Positions 3,128-22,174 of a stretch of DNA of 37,032 nucleotides are shown here, piece by piece; the first letter of the stretch is position 1; each line of letters opens with the position of its first letter. Where the stretch lies: contig DVHB01000129.1 of assembly GCA_018712405.1 (NCBI GenBank), positions 1-37,032 on the forward strand, read 5' to 3'. A program made the position numbers and the translations under genes. A model generated the notes under the pieces. The model saw only the letters and a program-made list of their open reading frames with translations, searched no databases and was not told the DNA's origin. Source of the stretch: Candidatus Coproplasma stercoripullorum (lineage in GTDB: Bacteria; Bacillota; Clostridia; Christensenellales; Borkfalkiaceae).

Positions 3128-3156
3128 TTGATTTTGTGACTGTTATATGTTAAAAT
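3128..3156 (+). promoter_or_regulatory. Promoter of the XRE regulator gene, predicted leaderless
   Basis: TTGATT (3128-3133) and TAAAAT (3151-3156) with a 17-bp spacer. The ATG is at 3163, 6 nt after the -10 box, so transcription should start at or next to the A of the ATG. No Shine-Dalgarno is present. The -35 hexamer is identical to that of the GNAT gene. Confidence 0.65.
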
Positions 3157-3162
3157 GATGCT

Positions 3163-3762
3163 ATGTACGAAATTGATGACATAAAAGATATCATTGCGGA
3201 AAATCTTGTGCGCTTCCGTACCAAGGCCAATCTTACGCAGGTTCAGCTGGCAGAACTGTTGAATTATTCCGATAAAGCCGTGTCAAAATGGGAGAGGGGA
3301 GAGTCGGTTCCGGATATACGCGTGCTCATGCAGATAGCCGGGATATATAACATCACCCTTGACGATCTTGTCAGCCGTCCTAAGGAGAAAGAAGTGAGGC
3401 CCGTTTTGCATAAACGCAAAAAGCAGGTGCTTATCACCCTTCTTGCCTTTGCCCTGGTGTGGTTCATAGCCACGGGACTGTTCGTCATTTTATGCTATGT
3501 TCCCGATCTTGAGTATGAATGGCTTTGTTTTGTTGCGGCCGCGCTTGCGTCGTCGATAGTTCTTACGGTATTTTCAGCACTTTGGGGGAATAAGATAACA
3601 AATGCGGTTACATGTTCGCTGATTTTGTGGTCGCTTGCTGCGCTGATATATACGGCAATGTATCTGTTCACGGCCGTGCCTTCGCTCTGGCTGCTGTTTG
3701 TCGCTGCATGTCCGTTCGAGGTGCTCATAATTCTGTGGTTCGTATTCCGGAAAGTCAAATAA
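3163..3762 (+). CDS. XRE-family transcriptional regulator with C-terminal membrane domain
   Basis: A 199-residue protein. Residues 9-70 are a Cro/CI-type helix-turn-helix: LTQVQLAELLNYSDKAVSKW followed by ERGESVPDIRVLMQIAGIYNITLDDL. From residue about 88 onward there are four to five hydrophobic helices with short loops (TLLAFALVWFIATGLFVILC, then WLCFVAAALASSIVLTVFSA, then three more), so the DNA-binding domain is tethered to the membrane. Membrane-bound XRE regulators of this shape are common in Clostridia, but their signals are mostly unknown. Upstream are CTCTAC repeats that may be its operator. A perfect terminator follows. The start is supported by the promoter position and by the HTH beginning immediately after it. 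Confidence 0.88.
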   Translation: MYEIDDIKDIIAENLVRFRTKANLTQVQLAELLNYSDKAVSKWERGESVPDIRVLMQIAGIYNITLDDLVSRPKEKEVRPVLHKRKKQVLITLLAFALVWFIATGLFVILCYVPDLEYEWLCFVAAALASSIVLTVFSALWGNKITNAVTCSLILWSLAALIYTAMYLFTAVPSLWLLFVAACPFEVLIILWFVFRKVK

Positions 3763-3779
3763 AAATGCAAATATTTTTG

Positions 3780-3806
3780 TCGGCCGCTAAGCGGCCGATT
3801 TTTTTT
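3780..3806 (+). terminator. Rho-independent terminator after the XRE gene
   Basis: 8-bp stem TCGGCCGC/GCGGCCGA with loop TAA (3780-3798), then eight T. It lies 17 nt after the stop codon. Confidence 0.9.
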
Positions 3807-3888
3807 ATATTCAAATCAAATTATTTTGTTCCGACGGTCAATTTCAAAATTGTTACTAATTCGGCTGATTACATTTTAAATTTGCGCG

Positions 3889-3894
3889 TATAGT
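3889..3894 (+). promoter_or_regulatory. -10 box of the ThrE-type gene, predicted leaderless
   Basis: TATAGT at 3889-3894 ends 7 nt before the ATG at 3902. No Shine-Dalgarno lies between them. The -35 is not clear; CTGATT at 3865-3870 (18-bp spacer) is the best candidate. Confidence 0.45.
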
Positions 3895-3901
3895 ATACCG
3901 T

Positions 3902-7018: not shown

Positions 7019-7873
7019 ATGGTAGGGCAGATCTTACTCGAACTTTGCTTTCTGTTTTTTGTGGGCAGTTGCCTCGGCTGGTGCGCCGAGGTACTGTTCC
7101 GCAGGTTTTTCAGCGCAAAAAAGTGGATAAACCCGGGTTTTTTAACGGGGCCGTACCTTCCGCTGTACGGCTTCGGACTCACCTTTATGTACGCCGTCAG
7201 CTTTATTCCCGTGGATACGGGCAGCGTTTGGGCGGATAAGCTTATACTCATAATAATTGCAGGGGTGCTCCTGACCCTTCTCGAATATATTGCGGGGCTG
7301 ATATTTATAAAGGGAATGAAGATTAAGTTGTGGGACTACTCCAAACAGCCCGGCAACATTCAGGGTATAATCTGCCCGCTGTTTTCGCTAATCTGGACGG
7401 CTGCGGCGGCGATATATATTTTATTCATTCACGGTTACATAATAAGTTGGGTGGCGTGGTTCGTAAACCACCTTGGTTTCGCCTTTTTTGTAGGTCTGTT
7501 TTTCGGCGTGTTTATAGTCGACCTTGCCCACTCTCTCAATTTGTCGGTCAAGATACGCAAATTTGCCAAGGAAAATCACATAATAGTATCGTTTGAAAAA
7601 CTCAAGGAGAGCGTGAAAGACAGCATAGAGCGCGGCAAAGAGCGCGCCGCCGAAAATCTGCAGAAGGGGCGCAAAATGCTTGATGAGCGCAGAGAGCGTT
7701 CCGGGCGCCGCCACGCAAGTTTTCTGTTCGCCTTCAAGGGTAAGAGCGTGCAGGATATGCTCGCCGACTATCTCGAAAGATTTAAAAAATCTAAAGGACG
7801 CGGTGAAAGCGGCGCAGGGGATAAGGATACGGAGCAGTTCGGCGACTTGCGCGGAGACGACAAAGATGAATGA
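7019..7873 (+). CDS. CmpB-family putative ABC-type permease membrane protein
   Basis: A 284-residue membrane protein of the family annotated as putative ABC transporter permease (ABC_trans_CmpB). The N-terminal block LGWCAEVLFRRFFSAKKWIN followed by PGFLTGPYLPLYGFG (residues 20-54) is diagnostic, and WDYSKQPGNIQGIICPLFSLIW (about 104-125) is the second conserved block. There are five to six hydrophobic helices up to residue about 180, followed by about 100 residues of highly charged helix (KLKESVKDSIERGKERAAEN and onward) that is probably cytoplasmic. The biochemical role of the family is unknown and no ATPase partner is adjacent. AAAGGA at 7004-7008 favours the ATG at 7019. It follows gltX by 37 nt and may be co-transcribed. 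Confidence 0.8.
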   Translation: MVGQILLELCFLFFVGSCLGWCAEVLFRRFFSAKKWINPGFLTGPYLPLYGFGLTFMYAVSFIPVDTGSVWADKLILIIIAGVLLTLLEYIAGLIFIKGMKIKLWDYSKQPGNIQGIICPLFSLIWTAAAAIYILFIHGYIISWVAWFVNHLGFAFFVGLFFGVFIVDLAHSLNLSVKIRKFAKENHIIVSFEKLKESVKDSIERGKERAAENLQKGRKMLDERRERSGRRHASFLFAFKGKSVQDMLADYLERFKKSKGRGESGAGDKDTEQFGDLRGDDKDE

Positions 7874-7980
7874 CGTCTGCCAAAATTAACGCAAATTTTC
7901 ACAATTATTTTATAATAAATTTATATCTGTAAACTATAATTTTTTCTGTAACGGGCAAAAACCGCGTGATCTGCGGTCTG

Positions 7981-8012
7981 AGCCGCGCCGTAAGGCGCGG
8001 CTTGAAGTTTTT
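7981..8012 (+). terminator. Hairpin with T-tract between the CmpB-like gene and the ABC transporter
   Basis: 9-bp stem AGCCGCGCC/GGCGCGGCT with loop GTAA (7981-8002), followed 7 nt later by five T (8008-8012). It is 107 nt after the stop codon. Smaller 5-bp hairpins flank it. It may be the terminator of the gltX unit, or a leader hairpin of the ABC transporter mRNA, because TATAAT boxes occur both upstream (7911 and 7935) and nowhere clearly downstream. Confidence 0.5.
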
Positions 8013-8100
8013 CCGCAGTACGATTGTGCGGCAAAAGCCGGCCCAAAACAGTTTCATGCATTTTGATCAGTCAAAGTTTTTTATTTTAAGGAATTAATAT

Positions 8101-10899
8101 ATGCTTCAACTGTGCAACATCAAAAAGGATTATAAGGTAGGCGATTCAACAGTTGCCGCACTCAAGGGCATAAGCCTGTCTTTCCGCCGCAATGAATTTG
8201 TGTCCGTTCTCGGCGCCTCGGGCTGCGGCAAAACTACGCTGCTCAATATAATAGGAGGCCTCGACCAATACACTTCTGGCGACCTCATCATCGAGGGTAT
8301 TTCTACCAAAAATTACAGCGACGGCGACTGGGATACCTACCGCAACCACCGTATAGGATTCGTGTTTCAGACCTACAACCTGATTCCCCATCAAACGATT
8401 CTGGGAAATGTAGAACTTGCTCTGACTCTCTCGGGAGTAAGTCCCAAAGAGCGCAAAGAGCGTGCGGCGGAGGCTCTCCGCAGGGTGGGGCTCGGCAACG
8501 AATTGAATAAGCGCCCCAACCAGCTTTCGGGCGGACAAATGCAGCGCGTCGCCATTGCCCGCGCCCTTGTGAACAATCCTGAGATATTGCTCGCCGACGA
8601 GCCGACGGGCGCGCTCGATACCAACACGTCCGTTCAGATAATGGATCTCATCAAAGAGATAGCAGGCGAGCGGCTGGTTATAATGGTCACGCACAATCCC
8701 GAGCTCGCTTATAAATATTCTTCGCGCATAGTCGAACTCAAAGACGGTCTTGTCGTGTCCGACAGCAATCCGTATTCCTCCGAAGAGGAAGAGGCGGAAG
8801 TCAAGGAGCACAGAGCGCAGCTTGCGGCAGAGAGCGCCGATGAGAGTGGAAGCGGCGAAAATACGCGCGACCTCTCTCCCCGAGAGCAAAAAAAGGCGCA
8901 AAAGGCAGCCGCCCGCGCCGCCGCGTATAAAACAAGGCATTCCAGCATGTCGTATTTCACGGCGTTTGTCTTAAGCGGCAAGAATCTGCTCACTAAAAAG
9001 GCGCGCACGCTTATAACCGCCATTGCGGGCAGCATAGGCATAATATCTGTCTGCCTTGTGCTCGCGCTCTCGTCCGGCTTCAACAACTACATAGGTCAGA
9101 CGGAGGAGGATATGCTCTCATACTACCCCGTCACCGTCAGCGAAACCTCGCTCGACCTCAATTCTGCGATGGCCAGCTTTATGAGCGGCTCCACAAGCAA
9201 CATTGAGATCGACAAAATAGAGGATAAAGTTTATGTGAATTCCTTCCTGTCGCAGCTTGCGCAGGGCATGACTACCACAAATGATCTGACCGACGGTAAT
9301 GTCGCCAATATAAACGGGCAGGATATGACCTATCTCGAGTATCTCGACGCCATGCCCGAAGAACTGTATAACGCCATAATGTATTCATACGGCGTATCAA
9401 TCTCGGCAAATCTTTTCACCGACGTGGAGATAGGTTCCGAATCTACTTCAGAGGACGTAAGCGCTGCCGGCACGCCGATGCATATGTCGCTCGAGAGCCT
9501 GCGCGAATACTACACCTATCTTCTGACGTACCGCGCCGAAGAGTTCTCCAACCTCACACAGTTCGTGCGCTACTTCACCGACGTCGTGAGCGTCATGCCG
9601 GACAGCGACATGAACGAGGAGGGTTTCAGTTGGGAAACCAGCTACGTTAATTCTCAGTACGACCTTATAGCGGGTGACTTTCCCGAAAGTTCCGACGAGG
9701 TTGTGCTCGTCGTCGGCGAAGACAACGACATAATCGACCTGACTTTGGTCCAGCTCGGCTTCATGACGGAGGAGGAGTTTCTCGACCTGTTCATATCCTC
9801 CGAGGACGGCGTGGATGAGGACGAAGAGCCTGCAAGCATCCCATTCGACGAGATAGTCGGCAAAGAATATACGCTGTATTACAATGACGCTGTATTCACG
9901 CCGTCCGACAGTGCTCTCACCGGCTATTCCTATATCTATCAGGGATTCAGACAGGCAACAGATGACGAGCAGCCTGTATCTTCGGAAGACGGCAGAACGC
10001 TTAAAATAAGCGGCATACTCCGGTTGAAAGACGGCCTCACTTACGGCTGCCTGGAGAGCGGCTTATGTCTCACGGAGAGCCTTATCCGCGAATACATTGC
10101 CGAAAATATGCAGTCGCAGATAGTAAACACTCTGAACTCTGCCGAAAATTCCACGGTAATCAATACTCTTGTGGGCGAAATAACTTTCGAGGGCATATTC
10201 GACGGCAACATGCGCCCTACAGCGCGCTATAATTCTACGTCAACGACCATGACGGAACTTGTCCGTCTGCTCGGCGGCAACGATCAGCCTTCGGGACTGT
10301 CCATCTATGCCGTAGATTTCGAGACCAAGCAACAGCTGCTCGACTATCTCGACGCATGGAACGAGGCGGTGGGCGAAGCGCGTGCGGCCTACTTTGAGGC
10401 CAACGGCACATACGACGGCTACGACGGTCCCACCGAGATAAATTATTCAGATACTGTCGGCACCCTGATGGGTATGGTCAACACCATTTTGAACGCCATA
10501 ACTTACGTGCTCGTCGCATTCACGGCCATATCTCTCGTAGTATCAACGGTCATGATAGGCGTAATAACTTACGTTTCCGTCGTCGAACGCACCAAAGAGA
10601 TAGGTATTCTCCGCTCGATCGGCGCGCGCAAGCGCGATATACGCCATGTATTCAATGCCGAAACATTTATCGTCGGCCTGTGCGCGGGACTCATCGGCGT
10701 TATCGTGGCATATCTGCTGCAACTTTTGATAAACGTGATATTGACGCCGCTCACCGGAATTTCAGGCCTTGCGGCGCTGCCGATATGGCAGGCTGTGATA
10801 ATGATATGCGTAAGCGTCGTCTTAACGCTCATTTCGGGCCTCATTCCCGCATCGGCCGCGGCCAAGAAGGATCCCGTAATTGCGCTCCGCACAGAGTGA
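8101..10899 (+). CDS. MacB-like ABC transporter, fused ATPase and FtsX-type permease
   Basis: A 932-residue protein joining an ATP-binding domain to a mechanotransmission-type permease. In the ATPase (about 1-225) Walker A is GASGCGKT (38-45), the Q-loop is Gln90, the signature LSGGQ is 142-146, Walker B is ILLADE (162-167) and the H-loop is His198. A charged linker leads to a first TM helix (about 302-325), then about 450 residues of extracytoplasmic domain, then three TM helices near the C-terminus with the FtsX/MacB motif [19 protein letters not shown]. This order (ABC, TM1, large outer domain, TM2-4) is that of MacB, whose relatives export peptides, lipoproteins or toxins, or move substrates using outer-domain motions. 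No MacA or two-component partner is adjacent. AAGGA precedes the ATG by 8 nt. Substrate unknown. Confidence 0.9.
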
Positions 10900-11051: not shown

Positions 11052-12248
11052 ATGCTTAAAAAATTTCTTGCAATTTCCGCCGCGGCGATTGCGGCGTGCG
11101 CAGCTCTCAGCGGCTGCGGTACCAATGCTTATGCGCGCTACAGGCGCACTTTCGCATCCTTCGGCGCCATGGCGACAGTATATCTCGACGGAGAGTTTTC
11201 CTCCGACGAACAAAGGCAGGACGCCATAGATACCGCCGAGGAGATCGGCGCCATTCTCACTTCGTTTGAAAATACTTTCAGCACCACGATAGAAGATTCC
11301 GACGTATGCTTATTCAACGCCGCCGCTCCCGGCTCTACGGTCGGTATAAGCGAGGATATGTATAATGTGCTCTCGCTTGCCCTCGAAATGTATGATGAAA
11401 CGGGCGGATACTACAACGCGGGCGTGTACTACAGCGTGGATCTGTACAATTTTGCCGCCCGCCCCGAGGGTGTCACCATGCCGTACGACAGGGAGGAGAA
11501 CAGCGATCTCCCCGACGAGCGCTATGTTGCCGCCTTTTGCGAGCTTTCAAAGAGCTTTTCAAAGATTGAGCTCTATGCTGAGGGAGGCAACTATTACGCC
11601 GTAAAGCCCGAAGATACGGTGGAAGTGGACGGCGTCATCTATTCGCTCGCCATAGATCTATCGGGTATTGCCAAGGGCTACACGGTAGACATCGTGGATA
11701 AGTATATAGAGGACGCGGGCTATCCGAACAGCAGTTTTTCATACGGAATGTCGAGCATAGCGGTAAACAGCACTCTCGCGACCGACAGCGGCGAGTGGTA
11801 CCTCACCTTCCGCGACCCGCGCGGCACTGTCGATGATTATTACATGGCAATAGACGTCAAAGACGCGTGTATCTCCACAAGCGGCGATTATGAAAACTAT
11901 TACGAGGTCGGAGACCGCAGGTATTGTCATATAATCGACCCCGACACCGGCTCGCCGATAACCACGGGAATAGTCACCTCCAGCTGCATAGGCGGCACGG
12001 CCGCTGAGGACGACGCCCGCACTACCGCCGTAATGGCCATGGGGCTTGACGACGCGATAGAGTATATAAATTCGCAGACGGTAAAGGAGCAGGGGCTCAG
12101 GATCACCTTTGTATATCAGAACTCGGCAGGCGAATATCTCCTCGTGACCAACATTCCCGAGGGGGAGTACGAGCTTCTGAACAGCGTCTATATCCCCGCC
12201 AGCCGCATTGACGAAAACGGCAACGTGGTGTTTACGGGAACAAGGTGA
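11052..12248 (+). CDS. apbE: FAD:protein FMN transferase (ApbE), lipoprotein
   Basis: A 398-residue ApbE-family enzyme. It hydrolyses FAD and attaches FMN through a phosphoester bond to a Thr in the (S/T)GAT motif of targets such as RnfG and RnfD. It begins with a lipoprotein signal peptide (KKFLAISAAAIAACAALSGC) with lipobox LSGC, so Cys22 should be lipidated and the enzyme should act outside the cytoplasmic membrane. The family motifs DLSGIAKGYTVD (about 200-211) and HIIDPDTGSPI (about 294-304), plus the preceding FRDPRG segment, are intact. It converges on the Rnf operon, whose RnfG has six predicted FMN acceptor sites. It is probably co-transcribed with the NusG-II gene 36 nt downstream. 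The start is fixed by the signal peptide and promoter. Confidence 0.93.
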   Translation: MLKKFLAISAAAIAACAALSGCGTNAYARYRRTFASFGAMATVYLDGEFSSDEQRQDAIDTAEEIGAILTSFENTFSTTIEDSDVCLFNAAAPGSTVGISEDMYNVLSLALEMYDETGGYYNAGVYYSVDLYNFAARPEGVTMPYDREENSDLPDERYVAAFCELSKSFSKIELYAEGGNYYAVKPEDTVEVDGVIYSLAIDLSGIAKGYTVDIVDKYIEDAGYPNSSFSYGMSSIAVNSTLATDSGEWYLTFRDPRGTVDDYYMAIDVKDACISTSGDYENYYEVGDRRYCHIIDPDTGSPITTGIVTSSCIGGTAAEDDARTTAVMAMGLDDAIEYINSQTVKEQGLRITFVYQNSAGEYLLVTNIPEGEYELLNSVYIPASRIDENGNVVFTGTR

Positions 12249-12284: not shown

Positions 12285-12779
12285 ATGTCACTCAAAAAGG
12301 TCCGTCAGGTCAAAAAAGACAGATTTTTTAAAATCTGGGATATCCTCATATACGGCTTGATCGCCGCAGTCGTCGCCGCGCTGTTTATAGCCGCTGCGTT
12401 TACCGCGGACAACAGTGCGCTGCAGTCGGTGGAGGTGCGCTACAACAACGCGCTAGCATTCTTCTACGACTTCTCTGCCGACGAATACGAGATCTCTCTG
12501 CCGCAGAACATAGCAGTGGAGGAGAATGAAGACGGCCTTACGGTCACTTTCTGTACAGACGGAGGTTCTCTCACAGAGCCGCGCGACTATAACATAATCT
12601 TTATCGATAAATCAGCGCGCACCGTCAGCGTGACCGAAAGCGACTGCTCAGCTCGCCGCGACTGCGTACACACCCGCGCCATAACAAATTCTTCGGGCGT
12701 TATAGTGTGCACTCCCCACCGTCTGGAGATATCTCCCCCCGGCTTCTCTGATATCGACGGTACTCTCCCCGCGGGGTGA
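12285..12779 (+). CDS. NusG domain II-containing membrane protein
   Basis: A 164-residue protein with one TM helix (about residues 19-41, DILIYGLIAAVVAALFIAAA) and an outer domain that matches the NusG domain II family: VTESDCSARRDCVHTRAI followed by GVIVCTPHRLEI. The paired cysteines SDC...DC and the IVC-P-H-L motif are conserved in this family. It is not the transcription factor NusG. Genes of this family regularly accompany apbE, the Gx transporter and rnf genes in Clostridia, which suggests a role in assembly or flavin handling of Rnf, but its biochemical role is not established. The upstream GGGG is a weak ribosome binding site. It follows apbE by 36 nt and is followed by the shared terminator. 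Confidence 0.82.
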   Translation: MSLKKVRQVKKDRFFKIWDILIYGLIAAVVAALFIAAAFTADNSALQSVEVRYNNALAFFYDFSADEYEISLPQNIAVEENEDGLTVTFCTDGGSLTEPRDYNIIFIDKSARTVSVTESDCSARRDCVHTRAITNSSGVIVCTPHRLEISPPGFSDIDGTLPAG

Positions 12780-12939: not shown

Positions 12940-13770
12940 TCATCTTACAAGAATTATCTTCCTCGGGCATTTTGAAACGCAGGTGAGGCAGCCCGTGCAC
13001 TTTGAATAGTCGAATACGGGCAGATTGTCAACCATGGTTATCGCGCCGTGCGGGCAGCTCTTCGCGCAGATGCCGCAGCCTATGCAGCCCACCTTGCACT
13101 GTGCACGCACCTCTTTGCCAGGGCAGTGGGAGGAGCATGCCACATATACGGGCGCGCTCGCCGGAATGCGCTCTATTATGTGTTTGGGACAGGCGTTTAT
13201 GCACGCTCCGCACGATATGCACCTCTCGGGTATGACCTTTGCAAGCCTTCCTTCAACCTTTATCGCTTTTTCAGGGCAGACCGCCGCGCAGTCGCCGCAG
13301 CCCAGGCAGGCCGATTTGCAAAGTTTGTTGCCGCCGTAGAGCGTGCTGCACGCTTTGCAGGTGGGGTTTCCTTTATATTCGAATGCGTCGGGCGCATTTT
13401 CCGCGCCGCCGTTGCAATGCACTATCGCAACGGTGGGTTCTTCGTCTTTTATCTCAATGCCCAAAAGTTTTGCGATCTCTGCCTTTTTTTCGGGCGAGGT
13501 CACGTGGCAGTCGGCCAGGTCGCCCTTTCCGCAGGCGAGTTTCTGCGCAAAACCGCTGCAGCCCGAACAGCCGCAGCCGCCGCAGTTTGCGCCCGCCAGA
13601 TTTTCAAGAATGGCCGTAACCTTTTCGTCTACGTTCACTTTAAATACTTTGCCGATTACCAGAATGGCTATAACGAGTACGAGCGCAATCCCCGCAAGTA
13701 TTCCCGCCACAATGCCTACTGTTTTCCAGGTTTCGGCGTTTACTTCGCCTAAGCTCACAAGTAAATTCAT
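12940..13770 (-). CDS. rnfB: Rnf complex subunit RnfB, ferredoxin-accepting iron-sulfur protein
   Basis: A 276-residue polyferredoxin that takes electrons from reduced ferredoxin on the cytoplasmic face and passes them into the Rnf complex. An N-terminal TM helix (about 17-42) is followed by the RnfB-specific Fe-S domain LAGANCGGCGCSGC (58-71). Next come four CxxCxxCxxxCP clusters: CLGCGDCAAVCP (155-166), CISCGACINACP (184-195), CIGCGICAKSCP (229-240) and CTGCLTCVSKCP (258-269). Extra cysteines lie in between (CKAC at 138-141 and ACSSHC at 211-216). AAGGAGG overlaps the rnfA stop codon and is well spaced to the ATG. It is the last gene of the operon and ends 32 nt before the shared terminator. 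Confidence 0.95.
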   Translation of the reverse strand: MNLLVSLGEVNAETWKTVGIVAGILAGIALVLVIAILVIGKVFKVNVDEKVTAILENLAGANCGGCGCSGCSGFAQKLACGKGDLADCHVTSPEKKAEIAKLLGIEIKDEEPTVAIVHCNGGAENAPDAFEYKGNPTCKACSTLYGGNKLCKSACLGCGDCAAVCPEKAIKVEGRLAKVIPERCISCGACINACPKHIIERIPASAPVYVACSSHCPGKEVRAQCKVGCIGCGICAKSCPHGAITMVDNLPVFDYSKCTGCLTCVSKCPRKIILVR

Positions 13771-13780
13771 ATCGCCCTCC

Positions 13781-14386
13781 TTAAACCTGAATGTAACTGA
13801 ATACGGTGAACGCCATGCAGATTATGCTGGCCGTTATCATGGCTATGGGGAAACCCTTTAAAGCTTTCGGCATTTCACCGTAGTTGCCTATCCTTTCGCG
13901 AAGTCCGCTCATAATTATCATTACGAGCGTGAAGCCAAGTCCGGCAAACACCGCATATAAAACCGCCCAGCCTGTGTTCATTGTCGCCGTGCCGATTATC
14001 GAACTCATGTCGCCTATGACCAGCTCGCACACGCCGAGAACGGCGCAGTTTGTGGTTATAAGCGGCAGGTATATGCCCATCGCGTTGTAGAGGGGAGGAG
14101 AGAGTTTCTGTATTACCTTTTCGATCATCTGCACGAGCGCGGCGATGATGAAGATAAAGAATATTATTTCCAGAAAGTCTATGCCTAGCGGCACCATAAC
14201 ATATTCATACAGAGGATATGTCACCGCCGTTGCAATCGCCATGACTATGGTCACGGCAATGCCCATGCCCACGGCCGAGTTTGTCTTTTTCGAAACGCCC
14301 AAAAAGGGGCAGATGCCGTATGTGCGCACGGTAATAAAGTTATTTGTGAGCACGGCGGCAAGAACTATCGCTATAAACGTTCCCAT
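13781..14386 (-). CDS. rnfA: Rnf complex subunit RnfA
   Basis: A 201-residue membrane protein with six TM helices, homologous to NqrE. With RnfE it forms the central membrane core holding a [2Fe-2S] cluster that passes electrons across the membrane. The cluster-ligand cysteines are visible in YGICPFLGVS (23-32) and TTNCAVLGV (about 110-118), in the two symmetry-related half-helices. The RnfA tail KGFPIAMITASIICMAF is typical. The ATG follows the rnfE stop codon directly (TAA-ATG), with CAGGAGG inside the end of rnfE as its ribosome binding site. Confidence 0.95.
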   Translation of the reverse strand: MGTFIAIVLAAVLTNNFITVRTYGICPFLGVSKKTNSAVGMGIAVTIVMAIATAVTYPLYEYVMVPLGIDFLEIIFFIFIIAALVQMIEKVIQKLSPPLYNAMGIYLPLITTNCAVLGVCELVIGDMSSIIGTATMNTGWAVLYAVFAGLGFTLVMIIMSGLRERIGNYGEMPKALKGFPIAMITASIICMAFTVFSYIQV

Positions 14387-15037
14387 TTATGCCACCTCCT
14401 GTACGAGCGATTCATGTGTAAGCGGTCTGTACTTTTTCTCTCTGCGAATGCGTTCCACCGTATCCATTATATAAACGAATATCGCGATGCAAGTGCCGTA
14501 AACAAGGAATGCGCCGGCAGGCGTGGAGAAAGCGCCTATAGAAAAATTCATTATCTGCAGACCGAATACCGAACCGGCTCCCAGGAACTCGCATATTATG
14601 CCCATTATGGTGAGGGCAGCCGTAAAGCCGAGGCCCGTCGCCACGCCGTCGAGCGCCGATTCGATTACCGTGTGCTTGCTTGCAAACGCCTCTGCCCTGC
14701 CGAGAATTATGCAGTTAACTACGATGAGCGCCAAAAATCCGCCCAGGCTGTCGTACAGGTCGGGTACGAATTTTTCAAGCACCATTCTCGCAAGCGTTAC
14801 AAGCGTCGCGATTATAACGATGTATGCGGGGATCCTGACTTCGTTGGGTATAACCTTTCTCAGCGCCGAGATAAGCATGTTGCTCAGCGTGAGTATCACC
14901 ACAACGGTGAGTCCCATGCCCGCCGCGCTGGAGGCGGATGAAATAAGTCCGAGAGTGGGGCAGGTGCCCAGCACCAGCATAAAGGTGGGGTTCTGGAAGA
15001 TGAGTCCGTCTAAGCTTATCTTTGCATATTTGTTCAT
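14387..15037 (-). CDS. rnfE: Rnf complex subunit RnfE
   Basis: A 216-residue, six-helix membrane protein homologous to NqrD and the pseudo-symmetric partner of RnfA. The cysteines expected to bind the shared [2Fe-2S] cluster are in LGTCPTLGL (about 23-31) and VNCIILGRAEAFA (about 109-121). FQNPTFMLVLGTCP is the classic RnfE N-terminus. The start codon overlaps the rnfG stop by 4 nt (ATGA), with GGAGGTG just upstream, indicating translational coupling. Confidence 0.95.
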   Translation of the reverse strand: MNKYAKISLDGLIFQNPTFMLVLGTCPTLGLISSASSAAGMGLTVVVILTLSNMLISALRKVIPNEVRIPAYIVIIATLVTLARMVLEKFVPDLYDSLGGFLALIVVNCIILGRAEAFASKHTVIESALDGVATGLGFTAALTIMGIICEFLGAGSVFGLQIMNFSIGAFSTPAGAFLVYGTCIAIFVYIMDTVERIRREKKYRPLTHESLVQEVA

Positions 15038-17802
15038 TGCGCACCTCCTGTGATATCAAGCACCGCGTCGTAGTTGGCGGCGGCAAACAGCGCCGCATAG
15101 GTGCATAGGAAGTTGGAGTTGGTGGCTCCGGTATGCAGCGCGCCGTCTGCACTTTCGTCAAACTCGCCGTCCGGCGAAAGACCGTTTTCAGAAAGTATTG
15201 AAAGTAATCCGTCGGCGTTTTTGCCTATGAACAGCGAGCCGTCAAGCACGTCTTGGTTCATCAAATCTCCGTAATTCTGGTCTGGCATGACGGATGATCC
15301 GTTCGCAACTATCACAAAGTCGGTAACAATGCCGCCCTCGCCTACGGTCACAGAAATTTCAAACTGTCCCCAGATGAGTCCGTTTGCATTGCTCGCAATG
15401 GTGTAAATAACATTGTTGCCTTCAACGGTTACAGAAGTGTTATCGATGTCAACGTATTGCGTGTACTGATATTCTGCCTGCTGTTCTTCGTCGGCAATCT
15501 CAAGCGCCAGCTCATAGTTTGCCGAGGCAAACAGCGCCGCATAGGTGCACAGGAAGTTAGAATACGTCGCACCCGTTGCAAGCGTCCCGTCGATATCATC
15601 TGTGGTAAAGCCGCTGTCTGCGCCGCCCAAAAGTGCAAGAAGCTCGTCGGTATTTTTGCCAATATACAGGCTGCCGTTTTTAACTTCTTCGGGCATTTTA
15701 TCAATAAATCTGTCGGAGGTGGAGCCGTTGGTTGCTATTTCGTAATCAGAGATAACACCACCCTCACCCACAGTGATATTTATTGTGAACGCCTGCGCAT
15801 GACCGTATGAAGTGGTCACGACTGAGTAATTCACATTGTTGCCGCTCTTTGTTACAGAGGTGCCGTCTATATCTATATACTGGGTATACAGATATTCCTT
15901 TGTCGGTTCCTCGGGCTCCTCTGGCTCTTCGGGTTCCTCAGGCGTGCCGGGTTCGGCGTTTTCAAGCGCCAGCTCATAGTTGGCGGCCGCAAACAGCGCC
16001 GCATAGGTGCAGAGCGAGTTTGAGCGGGTCGCGCCCGTCGTCAGCTGGTCGTCCACATCGCCGAACGTACCGTCGTCGTTGAGAGGAATGAGCGCCAAAA
16101 TCTCGTCGGCGTCTTTTCCGATAAACAGCGAGCCGTCCTTAATATTTTGCGGCATCTGATTTATATAGCTATCGGAGGTTGAGCCGTTTATTTCGATTTC
16201 GTAAGCAGAGATAACTCCGCCCTCGCTTACTGTGATGTTTATAGTGAACGCCTGCGCGGGAGCGTATGCCGTGGTAACTATTCTGTAGTTTACGTTGTTT
16301 CCGTCCGCAGTGAACGTTGTCAGGTAGCCGTTTATATAATCGGTATACTGATATCCCGCAAGCGGATCGGGGGTGCTGTCGGCCGAAAGTTCGTTTCTCA
16401 CGAAAGTCAGCGCCGTATTTATTGCTCCTGCTATTGCCGTGAGCGACATCGTCGCGCCCGTTCCCGTCCATGCCGAAACATCTTCGCCCTCGGCAAAGTC
16501 ACCTTCAAACTGCGATAAAACGTCGTCGTTGTTCACCCGGTTAATATATGACTGGCCGGAGTTGCTGTCTATCACCACTCTGTCTACGCCCTTTACCGAA
16601 CCTTCGTCCATAACTACGACTACCCAGCAGGTGACCGTTCCGCCCGAAAAACCGCCCGTTCCCGTCGCGTTCACAAGGTAGTTTCCGTCATCCTCAATGT
16701 AGTAGGCACTGTTTATACTGCCGCCCGTATATTCTGTTTCAAAGCCGCCGCGCACGGTGATGTCTATCGTGAACGCGCCCGCTCTGCCGTAGCTCGTCGT
16801 CACTACGGTGTAGTCAATGGAATCTTCGTTGACTGTGGCCGTTGTCTGGCCGAGGTCTATATACTGCGTATAGTCGAGTTCTGCACCTTCGGAAACGGCC
16901 GCGCCGCCCTTTATTTCGTCATAGTTGGCAAGCGCAAACAGCGCGGCGTAAGCGCCGAGGAAGTTGGAATAGGTCGCGCCCGTCGCGAGCGAACTGTCTA
17001 TTGTGTCGACGGTGAAACCCTCTTCGGAGAATACTTCAAGTATTCCCTGCTCATCCTTGCCCTCAAAGAGGGAGCCGTCCAGCACCGAACCGTTCATAAG
17101 GTCGCCGTAGTCCTGTTCGGGCATCTGCGAAGAGCCGTTCTGCGTTATGATATAATCGGTGATAACGCCGCCCTCGCCGACTGTCACAGAGATAATAAAC
17201 TGTCCCCATATCAGCCCGTTTGCATTGCTTGCGATTGTGAATACGACGTTATTGCCGTCGACTTCATATGAGGTGTTCTCAAGGTCGATAAACTTGGTGC
17301 GCACAAAGTCTGTGTCTCCTGCAAGCGCCGTGTCATAGTTTGCCGCTGCAAACAGCGCGGCGTAGGCGCACAAAAAGTTGGAGTTGGTCGCGCCCGTGTG
17401 CAATTCGTCGCCGAGGTTTCCCGTGGTAAATTCGCCGTCAAAGTTCAAAAGGGAGCGTATCTGGCTCTCGGTCTTGCGCACAAACAGCGATCCGTCTTTT
17501 ACTTCTTCTGCCATGGAGTCGCCAAAGCCGGCGGTGGAGCCGTCAGTAATTATTTCATAGCTGCCTATGTTGTGCTCGTCAACGCCGACTTCCGTCGCCG
17601 TAACTTCCCTGCCGTATATGTTGTTCAGCACTCTCTGCAGCCTCTCGGCGTCGGATACGTAGAACAGGCTGTTGCATATAGTGAGCAGTATGCCCGATAT
17701 GAGCACTATGGCAAGGAGCACGGCTATGCATTTGAAGGAGGTACTCTTAAAAAAGCCCTTAACGGTAAACGGCTTCTTTTCTTTTACTTTCTCTTCGCTC
17801 AT
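15034..17802 (-). CDS. rnfG: Giant RnfG with six FMN-binding domains
   Basis: RnfG normally has about 200 residues, one TM helix and one covalently bound FMN. This protein has 922 residues. One TM helix (about 23-47) anchors a long extracytoplasmic chain with six FMN-binding domains, each ending in a TGAT flavinylation motif; the acceptor threonines would be 139, 277, 451, 592, 746 and 894. Domains 2 and 6 share NANGLIWGQF and QxYGDLMN; 4 and 5 share AFTINITV and NGSTSD; domain 1 lacks the N-terminal part. Domain 3 (about 375-470) is closest to ordinary RnfG (GTGGFSGGTVTCWVVVVMD, then GTGATMS). A Pro-Glu linker (PEEP repeats, 621-633) separates domains 4 and 5. It lies exactly in the rnfG slot, overlapping rnfD and rnfE by 4 nt each, with AAGGAGG upstream. 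FMN loading is inferred from the motif and the nearby apbE. Confidence 0.92.
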   Translation of the reverse strand: MSEEKVKEKKPFTVKGFFKSTSFKCIAVLLAIVLISGILLTICNSLFYVSDAERLQRVLNNIYGREVTATEVGVDEHNIGSYEIITDGSTAGFGDSMAEEVKDGSLFVRKTESQIRSLLNFDGEFTTGNLGDELHTGATNSNFLCAYAALFAAANYDTALAGDTDFVRTKFIDLENTSYEVDGNNVVFTIASNANGLIWGQFIISVTVGEGGVITDYIITQNGSSQMPEQDYGDLMNGSVLDGSLFEGKDEQGILEVFSEEGFTVDTIDSSLATGATYSNFLGAYAALFALANYDEIKGGAAVSEGAELDYTQYIDLGQTTATVNEDSIDYTVVTTSYGRAGAFTIDITVRGGFETEYTGGSINSAYYIEDDGNYLVNATGTGGFSGGTVTCWVVVVMDEGSVKGVDRVVIDSNSGQSYINRVNNDDVLSQFEGDFAEGEDVSAWTGTGATMSLTAIAGAINTALTFVRNELSADSTPDPLAGYQYTDYINGYLTTFTADGNNVNYRIVTTAYAPAQAFTINITVSEGGVISAYEIEINGSTSDSYINQMPQNIKDGSLFIGKDADEILALIPLNDDGTFGDVDDQLTTGATRSNSLCTYAALFAAANYELALENAEPGTPEEPEEPEEPEEPTKEYLYTQYIDIDGTSVTKSGNNVNYSVVTTSYGHAQAFTINITVGEGGVISDYEIATNGSTSDRFIDKMPEEVKNGSLYIGKNTDELLALLGGADSGFTTDDIDGTLATGATYSNFLCTYAALFASANYELALEIADEEQQAEYQYTQYVDIDNTSVTVEGNNVIYTIASNANGLIWGQFEISVTVGEGGIVTDFVIVANGSSVMPDQNYGDLMNQDVLDGSLFIGKNADGLLSILSENGLSPDGEFDESADGALHTGATNSNFLCTYAALFAAANYDAVLDITGGAQ

Positions 17803-18944
17803 TTGTCGCCGCCCTCCTTATTCTTTTTTTCCTTTACGTATCCGAACGGCCTGCGCCTTATAAAGTTGTCCAAAAGGGGCACAATAAGGTTCATTATTAT
17901 TATCACGAATGACGTGACTTCAAGGTGCGTAAAGTGCCTTAAAACTGCGACAAGCAGGCCGCCGACGGCGTAATAAACTATCTGCGCATACAGCCCTTTG
18001 GGCGAAGTTACATAGTCGGTCATCATAAATATGCCGCCGAACATCACTCCGCCTGAGAGGATGGAGGGCAAAAAGTATGCAAAGTCGCCGTTTAAAGCTA
18101 CCGTCATCAGCCCTGTGACTGCGAGGAACAGCAGCGGCTGCCACCATTTTATCACGCGCCTTATAACTAAGTACAGATATCCAACGATAAGCGCAAGTTT
18201 GCACGTCTCGCCTATGCAGCCCGAAAGTCCCGTTCCGAGGAAGAGATCCAGAAGCGACATTGCTCCGGGATTGCCGTTCATGAGTCCGCCCGTGAGGTAG
18301 GTAGAGCCCGAGGCAAGCGTCCCGCCGTCAATCGGTCCGAAGTGCGCGGCGGTGTAGGTAGTCACCGCGGTGAAGGATATCATCATGAACACCCTGCCCA
18401 CCGCGGCGGGGTTTGCAATGTTCCTGCCCGTGCCGCCGAATACCATTTTAACTATGACTATGGCAAACACCGCTCCTATCGCCGCCTCGTACCAGTGAAC
18501 GGAAGGGGGGAGTATGAGCGCGAGAATGAGTCCCGTAACAACCGATGTGAAGTCGAACTGTATAGCCCAGTTTTTGCACACCGCGCCCGATTTTGCAAAC
18601 GCCGCTCTTCGCAGTTCTGCGCGCTTTGCCTTTAATTGTGCGGCCGCCCCGTCAAAGGCCTGTCCGCTCTTTTTAAGTTCTTTAACCTTTTTTACAAGCG
18701 CCTTCGTGTCCTTGTTTGCAAAGCGCACGTTGAGCCCGCCCTTTGCTATAAAGAAGTACACAAACTCCGCAAGCACGGCAAACGCCATGCACGTTATCTC
18801 AAGGATGAATGCGTCCAAAAGGAAGTACACTATGCCGCAGATCGCCGCGGGCAGCAATGCTATTATAACGTCAAGCATTATGCCCCTTGTAGTGCGCCTC
18901 GACTTAACGTGGGGAGATGTGGATATTACTATGCTGTTGTCCAT
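17799..18944 (-). CDS. rnfD: Rnf complex subunit RnfD with a charged insertion
   Basis: A 381-residue membrane protein of the NqrB/RnfD family, normally carrying a covalent FMN. Family blocks are SPHVKSRRTTRGIMLDV (10-26), TSVVTGLILALILPPSVHWY (133-152), FGGTGRNIANPAAVGRVF (169-186) and the late MTDYVTSPKG. The flavin-acceptor region reads SGST (212-215) where most relatives have SGAT, so Thr215 is the likely site. Between the second and third helices there is a lysine-rich insertion of about 50 residues (about 70-122) not seen in ordinary RnfD. The ATG at 18944 shares one base with the rnfC stop (TGATG), with GGAGG just upstream; the open frame to 19055 overlaps rnfC and is not used. Confidence 0.93.
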   Translation of the reverse strand: MDNSIVISTSPHVKSRRTTRGIMLDVIIALLPAAICGIVYFLLDAFILEITCMAFAVLAEFVYFFIAKGGLNVRFANKDTKALVKKVKELKKSGQAFDGAAAQLKAKRAELRRAAFAKSGAVCKNWAIQFDFTSVVTGLILALILPPSVHWYEAAIGAVFAIVIVKMVFGGTGRNIANPAAVGRVFMMISFTAVTTYTAAHFGPIDGGTLASGSTYLTGGLMNGNPGAMSLLDLFLGTGLSGCIGETCKLALIVGYLYLVIRRVIKWWQPLLFLAVTGLMTVALNGDFAYFLPSILSGGVMFGGIFMMTDYVTSPKGLYAQIVYYAVGGLLVAVLRHFTHLEVTSFVIIIMNLIVPLLDNFIRRRPFGYVKEKKNKEGGDK

Positions 18945-20251
18945 CAGTTGCCTCCTTTTTCGCGAGCGCGCACGGCGGCCTTGGTGTTTCTTATGGCCTG
19001 GATGAGCGGCCTCTTCGCGGGGCACACATATTCGCACACTCCGCACTCTATGCAATACATCGCCCCGCCGAGTTTCACCGCGTTGTCGATGTCACCTGCG
19101 GAGGAGTAGAACGCCGTGTTCATCGGCATCAGGTGCATGGGGCAGTGGTCTGCGCACAGCCCGCAGTTTAAACAGGGAGTGGGCGCCTCTGCGGCGGCCT
19201 CCTTTTCGGTGAGCAGCAGTATTCCGCTCGTCGTCTTTTTAACATAGTTGTCGTAGCTCTTTATGGCAACGCCCGTCATCGGCCCGCCCAAAACTACTTT
19301 CTTGGGCGCTGAGGCTTCGCCGCCGCAACTCTCTATAATATAGCTTATCGGCGTTCCTACGGGCACTTTCACGTTGAGCGGATTTTTGACCGCCCTGCCC
19401 GAAACGGTGAGTATGGCGTCTGTGTACGGTTTGCCCTGCTCTATTGCCTCGCATACGGCAAGACATGTGGCAACGTTGTTGACGATCACGCCTGCGTCTG
19501 CGGGGAGTTGTCCGAATTTCACCTTCCTGCCCGTCGCAACGTAAATAAGTTGCTTTTCGCCGCCCATCGGGTACTTTTTCTTAAGCGTAACCACCTGTAT
19601 GTCGTCATATTTTTCAAATTCGGCGATGGCGTCGGGCTTGTTTACCTCTATGCCCATAAGTATTTTCGGGGCTCCCAGCGCCTTGGCGATATATCTTGCG
19701 CCGCGCACAATTTCGTCGGTGTTCTCTATCATTATGCGGTAGTCGCAGGTGAGGTAGGGCTCGCACTCCGCGCCGTTTATAATAAGCGTGTCCACGGGCG
19801 CCTTTGGTTGCAGTTTTACGGCGGTGGGAAAGCCCGCGCCGCCAAGGCCCACAATGCCGGCGTCGCGCACGCGCGCCACTATCTCTTCGGCCGTCGGATC
19901 GGTCAAAGGGGGAAGATGCTGCTCTCGGCCCTCTCCGTCGCCTTCAATTACAACATATGTGTCCCTGCAGCCGCATTCGTTTTCCAGTTCGGCTATTTTT
20001 GTGACTTTTCCGCTTATGCTTGCAAACACGTTCGAAGAAACTTCGCCGTCTGCCCGTCCAATCAGCTGGCCGCGCGCCACGACGTCGCCGACTTCAACGC
20101 ACGGTATAGCGGGCCTTCCGACCGACTGTTTCATTGCAACGGCAACTTCGGTCGGGGCAGGCAGTTCTGCCACGCGCGCAGCCTTTGCAAGCGGCTTTTC
20201 GTCGGGTATATGCACTCCGCCGAAAAGCATTCTGCCTTTCACTGCTTTCAA
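18944..20251 (-). CDS. rnfC: Rnf complex subunit RnfC, NADH-binding iron-sulfur flavoprotein
   Basis: A 435-residue peripheral cytoplasmic subunit where NAD+ is reduced. VGLGGAGFPTAVKL (about 134-147) and IINGAECEPYLTCDYR (about 156-171) are the FMN/NAD(H)-binding signatures shared with NuoF and NqrF-independent RnfC proteins. Two [4Fe-4S] motifs near the C-terminus are CLNCGLCADHCP and CIECGVCEYVCP. The N-terminal FGGVHIPDEKPLA is typical of RnfC. The start is a TTG at 20251, chosen because a perfect AAGGAGG lies 6 nt upstream (20258-20264); the next in-frame ATG is seven codons later. It follows the Gx transporter gene by 74 nt. Confidence 0.94.
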   Translation of the reverse strand: MKAVKGRMLFGGVHIPDEKPLAKAARVAELPAPTEVAVAMKQSVGRPAIPCVEVGDVVARGQLIGRADGEVSSNVFASISGKVTKIAELENECGCRDTYVVIEGDGEGREQHLPPLTDPTAEEIVARVRDAGIVGLGGAGFPTAVKLQPKAPVDTLIINGAECEPYLTCDYRIMIENTDEIVRGARYIAKALGAPKILMGIEVNKPDAIAEFEKYDDIQVVTLKKKYPMGGEKQLIYVATGRKVKFGQLPADAGVIVNNVATCLAVCEAIEQGKPYTDAILTVSGRAVKNPLNVKVPVGTPISYIIESCGGEASAPKKVVLGGPMTGVAIKSYDNYVKKTTSGILLLTEKEAAAEAPTPCLNCGLCADHCPMHLMPMNTAFYSSAGDIDNAVKLGGAMYCIECGVCEYVCPAKRPLIQAIRNTKAAVRAREKGGN

Positions 20252-20325: not shown

Positions 20326-20919
20326 TTAGTCTGAATTATTTTGATTATCTGTAATGTCGCGCCCCGCGCGGGCGCCGTCTTCCGCCTTTGGCAAATTGTA
20401 TGCCGCGCGCACAAATACGCTCTCCGGCACTTTTTTGAATATTATAGTGACGACCGCCCCGACTATCGCGCCCGAAAGCACGCCGATCAGCGCAAGGTAG
20501 GGCATATACGAAAACATCAGCGACGTCCCTGTGACGAGCACGAACACCGCATTCTGCACGATGTTGTGCAACACCGCCGCGGCCACGCTCACAGCCAGAA
20601 CGCTCACGCGCGGATAGGCGATATATATGAGTATTGCCGAAAGAGCAAGCGAAATTACGCCGCCCGTAAGGCTGTACAACAGCATTGATACATTGCCCGC
20701 AAACAGCGAACCGAGCACCGTGCGCACGGCCACCACAACGAGCGCCTCGATCGGTCCGTACAATATCAGCGCCGCCAGCGAAAATATGTTGGCGAGGCCC
20801 ATCTTCGCCCCCGGCACAAACAGCGGGGGGAATTGATTTTCAATTATGAACACAATGAGCCCCAGCGCCGAAAACAGCGCAAGCATTGCTATCTTTTTTG
20901 CGGGGAAACGGCTTTTCAT
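20326..20919 (-). CDS. Gx transporter family protein (heptaprenyl diphosphate synthase component I-like)
   Basis: A 197-residue membrane protein with five to six TM helices of the Gx transporter family, also named heptaprenyl diphosphate synthase component I from an old assignment. FVPGAKMGLANIFSLAAL (about 36-53) and VRTVLGSLFAGN (about 64-76) are the conserved blocks. The fold resembles ECF S components, so uptake of a small molecule is plausible; in Clostridia it is often found beside rnf, apbE and NusG-II genes. As first gene of this Rnf operon it may supply a flavin precursor or another cofactor, which is inference. I choose the ATG at 20919 over the TTG two codons upstream because of the promoter position. 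The C-terminus is hydrophilic. No Shine-Dalgarno. Confidence 0.85.
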   Translation of the reverse strand: MKSRFPAKKIAMLALFSALGLIVFIIENQFPPLFVPGAKMGLANIFSLAALILYGPIEALVVVAVRTVLGSLFAGNVSMLLYSLTGGVISLALSAILIYIAYPRVSVLAVSVAAAVLHNIVQNAVFVLVTGTSLMFSYMPYLALIGVLSGAIVGAVVTIIFKKVPESVFVRAAYNLPKAEDGARAGRDITDNQNNSD

Positions 20920-20927
20920 ATGCAAAC

Positions 20928-21093: not shown

Positions 21094-22143
21094 TCAATCG
21101 GCGTTTCTCAGCCTGAACGAATAGATGTGTTCCAGTTTTTCGCGAACGAACGCGCCGTATTTTACGCTCGCCGATTCAAACAGTACGTATATCCTGTCCC
21201 CGTCCGAGCACATTCCCTCGCTCATGCTCGGTATTTCGTAGTCGGATAAAAGATTTGCGCTGTCGAGGAAGTATACGTCGTACTCTGTTCCGTTTATCGT
21301 TATGGCGTCGTCGCTGTGCGCGGTGGAGGATGTGCTGAAAGAATATGTGAGTATGTGCGAGTTGTGCAGGCCGTAGCTCTGCGAAAGAATTATCTTCGAG
21401 CCGTCCTCGCTCATCGCCATACCCTGAATTTTTCCGGTTATACTGAATATCCTGCTCGGTGCCGTGGGGGTGGAGGTGGTCGCCGAATAGCGCAGTATGA
21501 TCGCAGTGTTTTCGTCGCCCGCGGGAGTGGTAAAGCGGTGACTCATATCCGTCTCGTAGTTGCCGGCGCGGTAAAATTCACCCACATACAGATAGCCGGA
21601 GCGGTAATAGCAGAACGAGGCGTTGCAGTTTGCATTCCATGAGTTGGTAATCTCCACGGCGCCGTTATCTTCGGCCGCGCTCATCACCTCCGAATAGCTC
21701 AGAACATAAATCTTTCCGCCCGATGCTATCCACACCCTGCTCGTTCCGTTGCTCGCAACGCCGCCCGCATGTCCGGTGTATGCCGATCCGTCGTCAAGCG
21801 TAACGGTGACATAGCCGGTCACGGCTCCGTCTTCCAGAACGTAAATGCGGGAGGGACTGCCGTCGTTCATGTATCCGCTTATAAACATCACGTCGCCGTC
21901 GGCGCTGTTGCCCAGGCCCTGCGGAATGAATCCCTCGTCCAGCGCAGGGATTTCGGTCTCCTGTCTGAACCTTCTTTCAAAGTCAGGGTATCTGTCGCCA
22001 AGATACCACACCATAAGGAATACGCCTAAAGCCGCAACAACGCTTGCGATCACAGCAAAAACCGTTACTATCTTTCTTGTCTTTGCGGGCGCGCCGGCGC
22101 CTGCCGCCGCATCTCTTGCGGCATTTTTTTTCTGCTTATCCAA
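21094..22143 (-). CDS. Membrane-anchored extracytoplasmic protein, possibly beta-propeller, function unknown
   Basis: A 349-residue protein that I do not recognise. A short basic N-terminus is followed by one TM helix (about 25-47, IVTVFAVIASVVAALGVFLMVWYL) and a 300-residue outer domain. The outer part has repeated short beta-strand units typical of a propeller or similar all-beta fold: EGFIPQGLG, then MFISGYMNDGSPSRIYVLE, HAGGVASNGTSRVWIASGGKIYVLS, YVGEFYRAG, GMAMSEDGSKIILSQSYGL, and EGMCSDGDRIYVLFESA. I place the start at a TTG (22143) because GGAG lies 6 nt upstream; another in-frame TTG at 22155 overlaps that GGAG. Good promoter upstream, own terminator downstream, so it is monocistronic. 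A sensor, surface-binding or lactonase-like role is possible; none is supported by a motif. Confidence 0.7.
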   Translation of the reverse strand: MDKQKKNAARDAAAGAGAPAKTRKIVTVFAVIASVVAALGVFLMVWYLGDRYPDFERRFRQETEIPALDEGFIPQGLGNSADGDVMFISGYMNDGSPSRIYVLEDGAVTGYVTVTLDDGSAYTGHAGGVASNGTSRVWIASGGKIYVLSYSEVMSAAEDNGAVEITNSWNANCNASFCYYRSGYLYVGEFYRAGNYETDMSHRFTTPAGDENTAIILRYSATTSTPTAPSRIFSITGKIQGMAMSEDGSKIILSQSYGLHNSHILTYSFSTSSTAHSDDAITINGTEYDVYFLDSANLLSDYEIPSMSEGMCSDGDRIYVLFESASVKYGAFVREKLEHIYSFRLRNAD

Positions 22144-22174
22144 TTTTAACTCCAAAAAATATCAGGTCCTGTTT

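Follow-up and report, generated by a model that had tools for sequence, protein, structure and literature searches.

An RnfG subunit enlarged to six predicted FMN-binding domains in Candidatus Coproplasma stercoripullorum

Rnf is a main energy-saving complex of anaerobes. In the stretch of DNA analyzed here (the window, 37,032 nucleotides [nt] of contig DVHB01000129.1 from Candidatus Coproplasma stercoripullorum), the slot of its subunit gene rnfG is filled by an open reading frame (ORF) of 922 amino acids with six TGAT motifs. The locus raises the question of what kind of protein this is and where the electrons that its additional domains might carry would go. From the evidence presented below, it appears to be an RnfG in which six flavin mononucleotide (FMN)-binding domains of the RnfG type are strung together, five of them in addition to the usual one.

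Position, motifs, and fold of the enlarged RnfG

The ORF (15034..17802, minus strand) begins with ATG and lies exactly between rnfD (17799..19055) and rnfE (14387..15037), with a 4-nt overlap on each side, as the initial annotation of this locus had stated. The six TGAT motifs start at residues 136, 274, 448, 589, 743, and 891, at successive spacings of 138, 174, 141, 154, and 148 residues, and the predicted acceptor threonines are residues 139, 277, 451, 592, 746, and 894; these positions and the range of intervals given earlier are thus confirmed. In 5,000 shuffles of the protein, TGAT occurred 0.08 times on average (maximum of 3) and [ST]GA[ST] 0.26 times (maximum of 4), compared with six occurrences observed. 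A single hydrophobic stretch at approximately residues 16 to 51 agrees with the one transmembrane (TM) helix claimed for the protein, as do the N-terminal helices of the AlphaFold2 (AF2) model (residues 14 to 19, 21 to 46, and 51 to 63, the last a linker helix). This TM region (residues 14 to 46; 17665..17763, minus strand) matches the RnfG N terminus of relatives.

Two traits of RnfG are found: an N-terminal TM helix and linker helix followed by a predicted extracytosolic FMN domain (the core domain, residues 353 to 477), and an (S/T)GAT acceptor in that domain (TGAT, residues 448 to 451). A third, the single FMN domain in a protein of about 200 amino acids, is absent, as there are six domains here. 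However, multi-domain RnfGs have been published (PMC8238504), so that this size is a habit of the family and not a defining trait. With at least two flavinylation motifs on homologous domains (six TGAT) and an ApbE encoded in the genome, the protein is also a predicted multi-flavin protein, and flavinylation is predicted at all six threonines.

Whether the six units are indeed FMN domains was less simple to establish. A search with the FMN_bind profile (PF04205), the check proposed in the initial annotation, gave no match in the protein at an E value of ≤1 in Pfam (the family cutoff of 22 bits was not reached), and other tests were needed. No NCBIfam family was found in the protein at an E value of ≤0.1, and PF04205 had 0 matches in the whole genome. 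Among the rnfG-position proteins in alignment A1, 27 of 36 match FMN_bind at an E value of ≤1 and 12 of 36 at ≤3e-4; the 922-residue protein is in neither group. Because of the profile, hhalign, and fold tests that follow, we judge that the missing match reflects the limited sensitivity of the model and not the absence of the domain.

A profile (A3) was built from 47 accessory domains; three of the 50 copies, all from the split first domain described below, were left out. Searched against the class, it matched 14 of 291 genomes, two of them from the window's genus (the window genome itself included) and the remaining 12 with E values of 1.5e-6 to 7.5e-4. Eight of these 12 loci were opened (L112 to L119), and seven encode ordinary RnfGs of 188 to 209 amino acids between rnfD and rnfE (E values of 1.5e-6 to 6.0e-5 per genome); L117 was rejected as an RnfG, as it is a repeat-rich surface protein of a different kind with one TGAT domain. 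Comparison of A3 with the ordinary RnfGs (A5) by hhalign gave a probability of 96 and an E value of 2.7e-9, with the TGAT/SGAT motif and the lysine of a GK pair aligned; seven of the eight rows of A5 were fetched with A3 itself, so this result adds detail and is not independent proof. By sequence against the PDB, the top two of the eight matches listed for A3 are CPE2226 (3o6u) and RnfG (7zc6_G), both weak (E value of 0.06). The AF2 model of an accessory domain has a predicted local distance difference test (pLDDT) score of 95.9 and a predicted template modeling (pTM) score of 0.91, and a Foldseek search with it places RnfG structures at rank 1 (7zc6_G; E value of 9.5e-3, probability of 0.99) and rank 3 (9eri_G). 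In the full-length model (pLDDT of 84.5, pTM of 0.48), the last long helix begins exactly at the predicted acceptor threonine in six of six units, a favorable outcome for the structure prediction that had been suggested. Profile and fold together make the units homologs of proven FMN_bind/RnfG domains, with PDB and Foldseek E values that are individually weak. As judged by the profile, profile-profile, and fold evidence, the six units are RnfG-type FMN domains. The GK lysine that aligns with the GK of ordinary RnfG is present in 41 of 47 accessory rows of A3; by eye, the core domain has no GK at that place. In NqrC, the FMN phosphate is held by a lysine, K207 (PMC12174285), for which the accessory lysine is at most a candidate counterpart.

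The initial annotation described a similar domain closing at each TGAT. Six RnfG-like units are present, but they comprise five accessory units and one core unit, and the second accessory unit interrupts the first. The accessory units are 44 to 65% identical to each other (with the split unit joined), whereas the core unit shares 24 to 32% identity with the others. The core RnfG FMN domain (residues 353 to 477; 16372..16746, minus strand, like all the domains) has Thr451 as its predicted acceptor at the start of helix 451 to 472 and matches the sole domain of the short RnfGs of the genus. In these short relatives, the TM segment (equivalent to residues 1 to 78 here) runs straight into the core domain. 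Here, a block is inserted between the two. It consists of the C-terminal part of accessory domain 1 (residues 78 to 163; 17314..17571; predicted acceptor Thr139 and helix 139 to 154), the complete accessory domain 2 (residues 165 to 300; 16903..17310; predicted acceptor Thr277), and an N-terminal part of an accessory domain (residues 310 to 352; 16747..16875), the three strands of which (321 to 324, 328 to 335, and 345 to 351) complement domain 1. Because the two separated parts match complementary profile stretches (A3 positions 36 to 123, at 17323-17592, and positions 1 to 41 of a closely similar second profile), the simplest reading is that the insert is probably a circularly permuted two-domain block with both ends coming together at the strand 3-strand 4 turn. 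A profile match of the first unit (profile positions 4 to 122) that begins at residue 38 and extends into the TM helix was set aside; its front part is judged spurious because relatives without the insert share residues 1 to 78.

Three accessory domains follow the core domain: domain 4 (residues 487 to 613; 15964..16344; predicted acceptor Thr592), domain 5 (residues 640 to 767; 15502..15885; predicted acceptor Thr746), and domain 6 (residues 781 to 915; 15058..15462; predicted acceptor Thr894). A linker rich in proline and glutamate lies at approximately residues 614 to 639. Domains 2, 4, and 6 were delimited from profile matches and the AF2 model, and domain 5, modeled alone, from its A3 match and the domain model. 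An assembly artifact is judged unlikely, as the repeats are at most 65% identical and the same inserted block occurs at loci L002, L003, and L050 (the last from Candidatus Coproplasma stercoravium).

Domain number and conservation in relatives

A search for homologs in the rnfG position, also suggested at the outset, showed that the same slot holds homologs of many lengths. With the whole protein as the query, 40 of 61 genomes match, including all 37 that were searched from the genus (the window genome among them, as well as other Candidatus Coproplasma species) and 3 of 24 others; many of these matches cover the TM segment and core alone. Within this one genus, RnfG has from one to six domains, with one-domain forms of 199 to 218 amino acids in the slot at L029, L030, L034, L037, L038, L039, and L040. 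Among 65 rnfG-position ORFs, the commonest form is the core with one accessory domain (29 ORFs), seven have the core with two, and some have none; this set was collected through similarity searches with the protein or its domain and is biased accordingly, includes both pieces of the L086 gene and ordinary RnfGs of genomes that do not belong to the order, and lacks L050, which its filter missed. In a rapid tree built from RnfD plus RnfE (64 rows, with one L086 piece dropped and L044 set by hand to two domains), domain number changes at least 15 times and the state switches between single and multiple at least 7 times, with many forks weakly supported. The 922-residue protein falls in a clade with four to six domains. 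In the order, A3 matched 12 of 297 genomes, 10 of them in the window's family (the window genome included), and L102, outside that family, encodes a three-unit RnfG of 544 amino acids; L103 (E value of 4e-4) encodes no RnfG and was therefore not taken as evidence. At L027 and L087, a different, helix-first arrangement follows the core. Two further forms were seen in passing: at L025 (1291-2376) and L026 (880-2088), the core-type domain is doubled and no accessory class is added (CC architecture), and at L086 (7138-8441), rnfG is present as two ORFs (318 and 108 amino acids), a frameshift or assembly fault in a metagenome-assembled genome.

The accessory domain also occurs outside RnfG. At L032 (7833-9602; Candidatus C. 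avicola, of the window's genus), it is fused to the N terminus of ApbE, beside a multi-FMN protein of 1,189 amino acids. This fusion is a sign that the accessory domain may be an ApbE substrate, and the fused protein is possibly a self-flavinylating transferase. At L060, L072, L077, and L085, accessory domains occur in proteins with several FMN motifs beside apbE, and the last three loci also adjoin rnf. By eye, a lipoprotein-like signal is seen at the N terminus of the proteins at L077 and L085 and also of that at L060, which was read as L032. The L085 protein (1545-4640) has 1,032 amino acids and the L077 protein (7809-9971) has 721; the latter also contains a domain of the core RnfG type without the RnfG TM segment.

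In the accessory class, [ST]GA[ST] was found by regular expression in 45 of 50 copies, and the other five have SSAS (three copies, all in L004), TGSS, and TCAT; position 4 of the motif is Ser or Thr in 50 of 50 (45 by regular expression and 5 tails by eye). The acceptor column of A3 is Ser or Thr in 44 of 47 rows, the three exceptions being L004 rows that are aligned differently there. A lone cysteine six residues past the predicted FMN-bearing threonine was also seen in 41 of 47 accessory domains (residues 145, 598, 752, and 900 here); an extracytosolic cysteine beside the flavin might tune its potential or form disulfide links between domains. In comparisons with L002 and L003, the number of nonsynonymous substitutions per site (dN) in the accessory domains is far below that of synonymous substitutions (dS, largely >1). 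Where dS is finite, dN/dS is approximately 0.04 to 0.23 in accessory domains and 0.09 to 0.14 in the core; these values are rough, as most comparisons have a dS of >1 and two of them (domain 2 versus L003 and domain 6 versus L002) an infinite one. Since domain 2 is closer to domain 6 of the same protein (65% identity) than to domain 2 of L002 (52%) or L003 (58%), exchange between domain copies is likely.

A possible electron route and its alternatives

The enlarged gene is part of a complete operon, rnfC-rnfD-G-rnfE-rnfA-rnfB, that runs from 20251 down to 12940 on the minus strand. The other members are rnfC (18944..20251; TIGR01945, E value of 9.8e-139) and, all identified with Pfam and NCBIfam, rnfD, which keeps Thr at its FMN acceptor position (SGST), rnfE, rnfA (13781..14386), and rnfB (12940..13770). 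Convergent with the operon, on the plus strand, are apbE (11052..12248; PF02424, E value of 1e-47), encoding a FAD (flavin adenine dinucleotide):protein FMN transferase and the only ApbE match in this genome (82% complete), and a gene for a NusG domain II protein (12285..12779; PF07009) that adjoins apbE here and in relatives. Upstream of rnfC, on the minus strand, lies a gene for a PF07456 protein (20326..20925; E value of 1.5e-33), of the family used for EetB, the S subunit of FAD export in Listeria, which often adjoins Rnf genes in Clostridia (PMC9973259). The full set of EetB family gene, rnfCDGEAB, and convergent NusG_II and apbE genes was counted by eye at 18 of 42 loci, with many of the others cut by contig or flank ends.

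During the Rnf cycle, movement of RnfG carries its flavin between the RnfA/E iron-sulfur cluster and RnfD across a gap of approximately 35 Å (PMC12174285); the flavin ring of RnfG is partly exposed. We read the protein as the RnfG of a complete Rnf (a ferredoxin:NAD+ [nicotinamide adenine dinucleotide] oxidoreductase) to which five further FMN-binding domains with the RnfG fold have been added. Most or all six of the threonines very probably receive FMN from ApbE, which would give approximately six flavins per RnfG, with FAD for ApbE perhaps supplied via the EetB family protein. The core flavin would still shuttle electrons from the RnfA/E cluster to RnfD, and the extra flavins would form a side branch that takes electrons from the core flavin at the outer surface; their acceptors there would be metals, soluble flavins or quinones, or, where a species has them, flavinylated lipoproteins. 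Ferredoxin oxidation, and perhaps ion pumping, would thereby be coupled to extracytosolic reduction. Of the explanations considered, we favor such a side branch to extracytosolic acceptors, with a confidence about evenly balanced against doubt. The exit of electrons to outside acceptors that the initial annotation put forward is not a new idea, as a second path of this kind was proposed in 2021 for multi-flavinylated RnfG (Meheust et al., PMC8238504). The accessory domains in apbE-linked, lipoprotein-like proteins may lend some new support to that published proposal. A bolder form of it, which we offer as tentative, is that RnfG acts as a length-variable flavin conductor that turns Rnf into a ferredoxin:extracellular-acceptor reductase; its reach would be set by the number of recombined domains, and the permuted linker pair would place the extra flavins beside the core without blocking its swing.

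Several observations weigh against a side branch. The RnfD acceptor threonine is kept and the NAD+ branch is not lost, which also rules out a one-way exit forced by a missing flavin site in RnfD. Searches of the window genome with FMN_bind, a model that is blind here, and FAD_binding_2 revealed neither an electron acceptor nor a partner. An extracytosolic flavoprotein reductase was considered as the acceptor and rejected, as the only full-length protein among seven FAD_binding_2 matches is a cytosolic L-aspartate oxidase (NF004820, 504 bits versus a cutoff of 472). Since domain number changes often and some relatives have a single domain, the comparative evidence indicates that the extra domains are dispensable. 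The L004 protein has no [ST]GA[ST] at all, with SSAS and TAAS instead. Rank 2 in the Foldseek search is IscU, and none of the matches reaches an E value of 0.001. Finally, hhalign gives a weak match of A3 to the single-domain RnfGs of the genus (probability of 43, E value of 2.4e-4), while the latter match A5 with a probability of 97.8; because of this difference, the accessory class and the core look like apparently separate branches of one fold.

The retained RnfD threonine makes it probable that the normal return path to NAD+ still runs, and the chain is therefore more likely a side branch or a buffer than a replacement. The strongest competing explanation is a buffer or tethered shuttle, which accounts for the same anatomy: the extra flavins would keep electrons in reserve or make flavin locally more concentrated, electrons would pass faster or more steadily between RnfA/E and RnfD, and none would leave the complex. 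The intact FMN site of RnfD and the lack of an outside acceptor among the FMN_bind and FAD_binding_2 matches in the window genome fit this explanation, and domains so alike may differ little in potential, as the three flavins of SaFMN3 do, which show a single value of -184 mV (PMC10339131). However, the core domain has to move back and forth between two sites (PMC12174285), and five further domains would load it; nor does a buffer explain why the same domain is found in separate proteins adjoining apbE and rnf. We consider it rather unlikely that electrons stay within the complex in this way. Less probable still is that the repeats grew in a largely neutral manner, with recombination multiplying and shrinking partly flavinylated domains that add little beyond the core shuttle. 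The 15 or more changes of domain number on the tree, the likely exchange between domains 2 and 6, the motif variants in L004, L008, and L016, and the rnfG in two pieces at L086 are what such growth would produce, whereas the low dN/dS of the accessory domains and the motif, GK lysine, and cysteine kept across copies speak against it.

The initial annotation went further and described a flavin wire leading from the Rnf core through or past the cell wall. Six RnfG-like FMN domains in the RnfG slot of a complete operon, apbE and eetB family neighbors, and homologs of many lengths in the same slot are supported, but the crossing of the wall is little supported and is the least supported form of the idea. 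By a rough estimate, six domains and the Pro/Glu-rich linker could reach some 20 to 25 nm. In contrast, 29 of the 65 similarity-fetched ORFs add a single accessory domain on the C-terminal side of the core, which we judge too short for the wall, and some have none; the low pTM of the full-length model and its lower confidence in the stretches that separate the units suggest that the domains are loosely connected. Neither Pfam nor NCBIfam revealed a wall-binding domain, a weak argument since neither finds any family in this protein. A wire that itself crosses the wall thus seems very improbable.

Relation to known systems and neighboring genes

Multi-flavin RnfG as such is already known, and the 922-residue protein is a longer, rearranged variant missed by standard models. 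Like the multi-flavinylated RnfGs of RNF clusters described in PMC8238504, it has more than one FMN-binding domain and might serve a second path to extracytosolic acceptors. That census used FMN_bind of Pfam 33.0 at an E value of 0.001; the protein has no match even at an E value of 1 with today's Pfam and was probably missed. The Christensenellales example presented there is of a heme type, which was rejected for the present protein, as it has no CXXCH motif. Ordinary RnfGs (7zc6_G of C. tetanomorphum and 9eri_G of A. woodii) share the TM anchor and an FMN_bind-type domain encoded between rnfD and rnfE, but they have one domain (188 to 209 amino acids in those found here) and not six. SaFMN3 and CbFMN4 (PMC10339131) likewise have tandem covalent FMN domains (predicted here) flavinylated by ApbE and separated by flexible linkers; their domains are >80% identical, unlike the accessory units at 44 to 65%, and the passages on them do not place them in an Rnf complex. 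Circularly permuted multi-FMN-bind1 proteins (PMC11334425) share tandem FMN domains and a displaced element that closes the array. There, the C-terminal helix is displaced, whereas here the split falls in the strand 3-strand 4 loop, with the block lying inside RnfG; the helix-first arrangement of L027 and L087 is closer to those proteins.

The extracellular electron transfer (EET) system of Listeria (FmnB, PplA, and EetB; PMC9973259) shares an ApbE-type transferase, a PF07456 FAD exporter subunit, and a flavinylated outer protein (predicted here), and the present locus does have EetB family and ApbE genes beside electron transfer genes. The source of electrons here would be Rnf, in contrast to the system described in Listeria, and some relatives have multi-FMN lipoprotein-like proteins. 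A PplA-like lipoprotein was not found in the window genome with FMN_bind, the whole 922-residue protein, or A3, none of these searches being aimed at Ndh2 or PplA, and the same three queries found no other FMN protein there. A second copy of the gene was also considered, but the weak match (G000:C22) is a leucine-rich-repeat protein with Glu/Pro-rich stretches and was rejected, as we judge the match to be due to low complexity.

In the literature covered (preprints and most subscription papers being outside its scope, and the supplementary gene lists of PMC8238504 excluded), we found no six-unit RnfG invisible to the Pfam model of the census, no permuted insert between TM segment and core, no one-to-six series in one genus, no fusion of the domain to ApbE, and no report on Coproplasma with Rnf. 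If an outer subunit can carry a flavin chain, Rnf could pass ferredoxin electrons to external acceptors with no need for hemes. Within the genus, RnfGs of one to six domains at this operon position form a natural series that makes the role of multi-flavinylated RnfG directly testable. Since the accessory domains escape the Pfam model of the published census, such systems may be undercounted.

Some minor observations concern the surroundings of the gene. The window genome has two FeFe-hydrogenase matches. Beside the rnf cluster, a minus-strand gene (21094-22155) encodes a 353-residue protein with one N-terminal hydrophobic segment (by eye) and no Pfam family at an E value of ≤0.001 or NCBIfam family at ≤0.1. 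The loop between two early membrane segments of RnfD is 74 to 77 amino acids long and rich in Lys, Glu, and Ala in the window, L002, L003, L004, L005, L027, and L087, compared with 18 to 33 amino acids in the other covered rows (mostly 33 in the genus; four rows lack the region). The seven long-loop rows are the clade with four to six domains and the two helix-first species, and the long loop could be a docking helix that accompanies long RnfGs.

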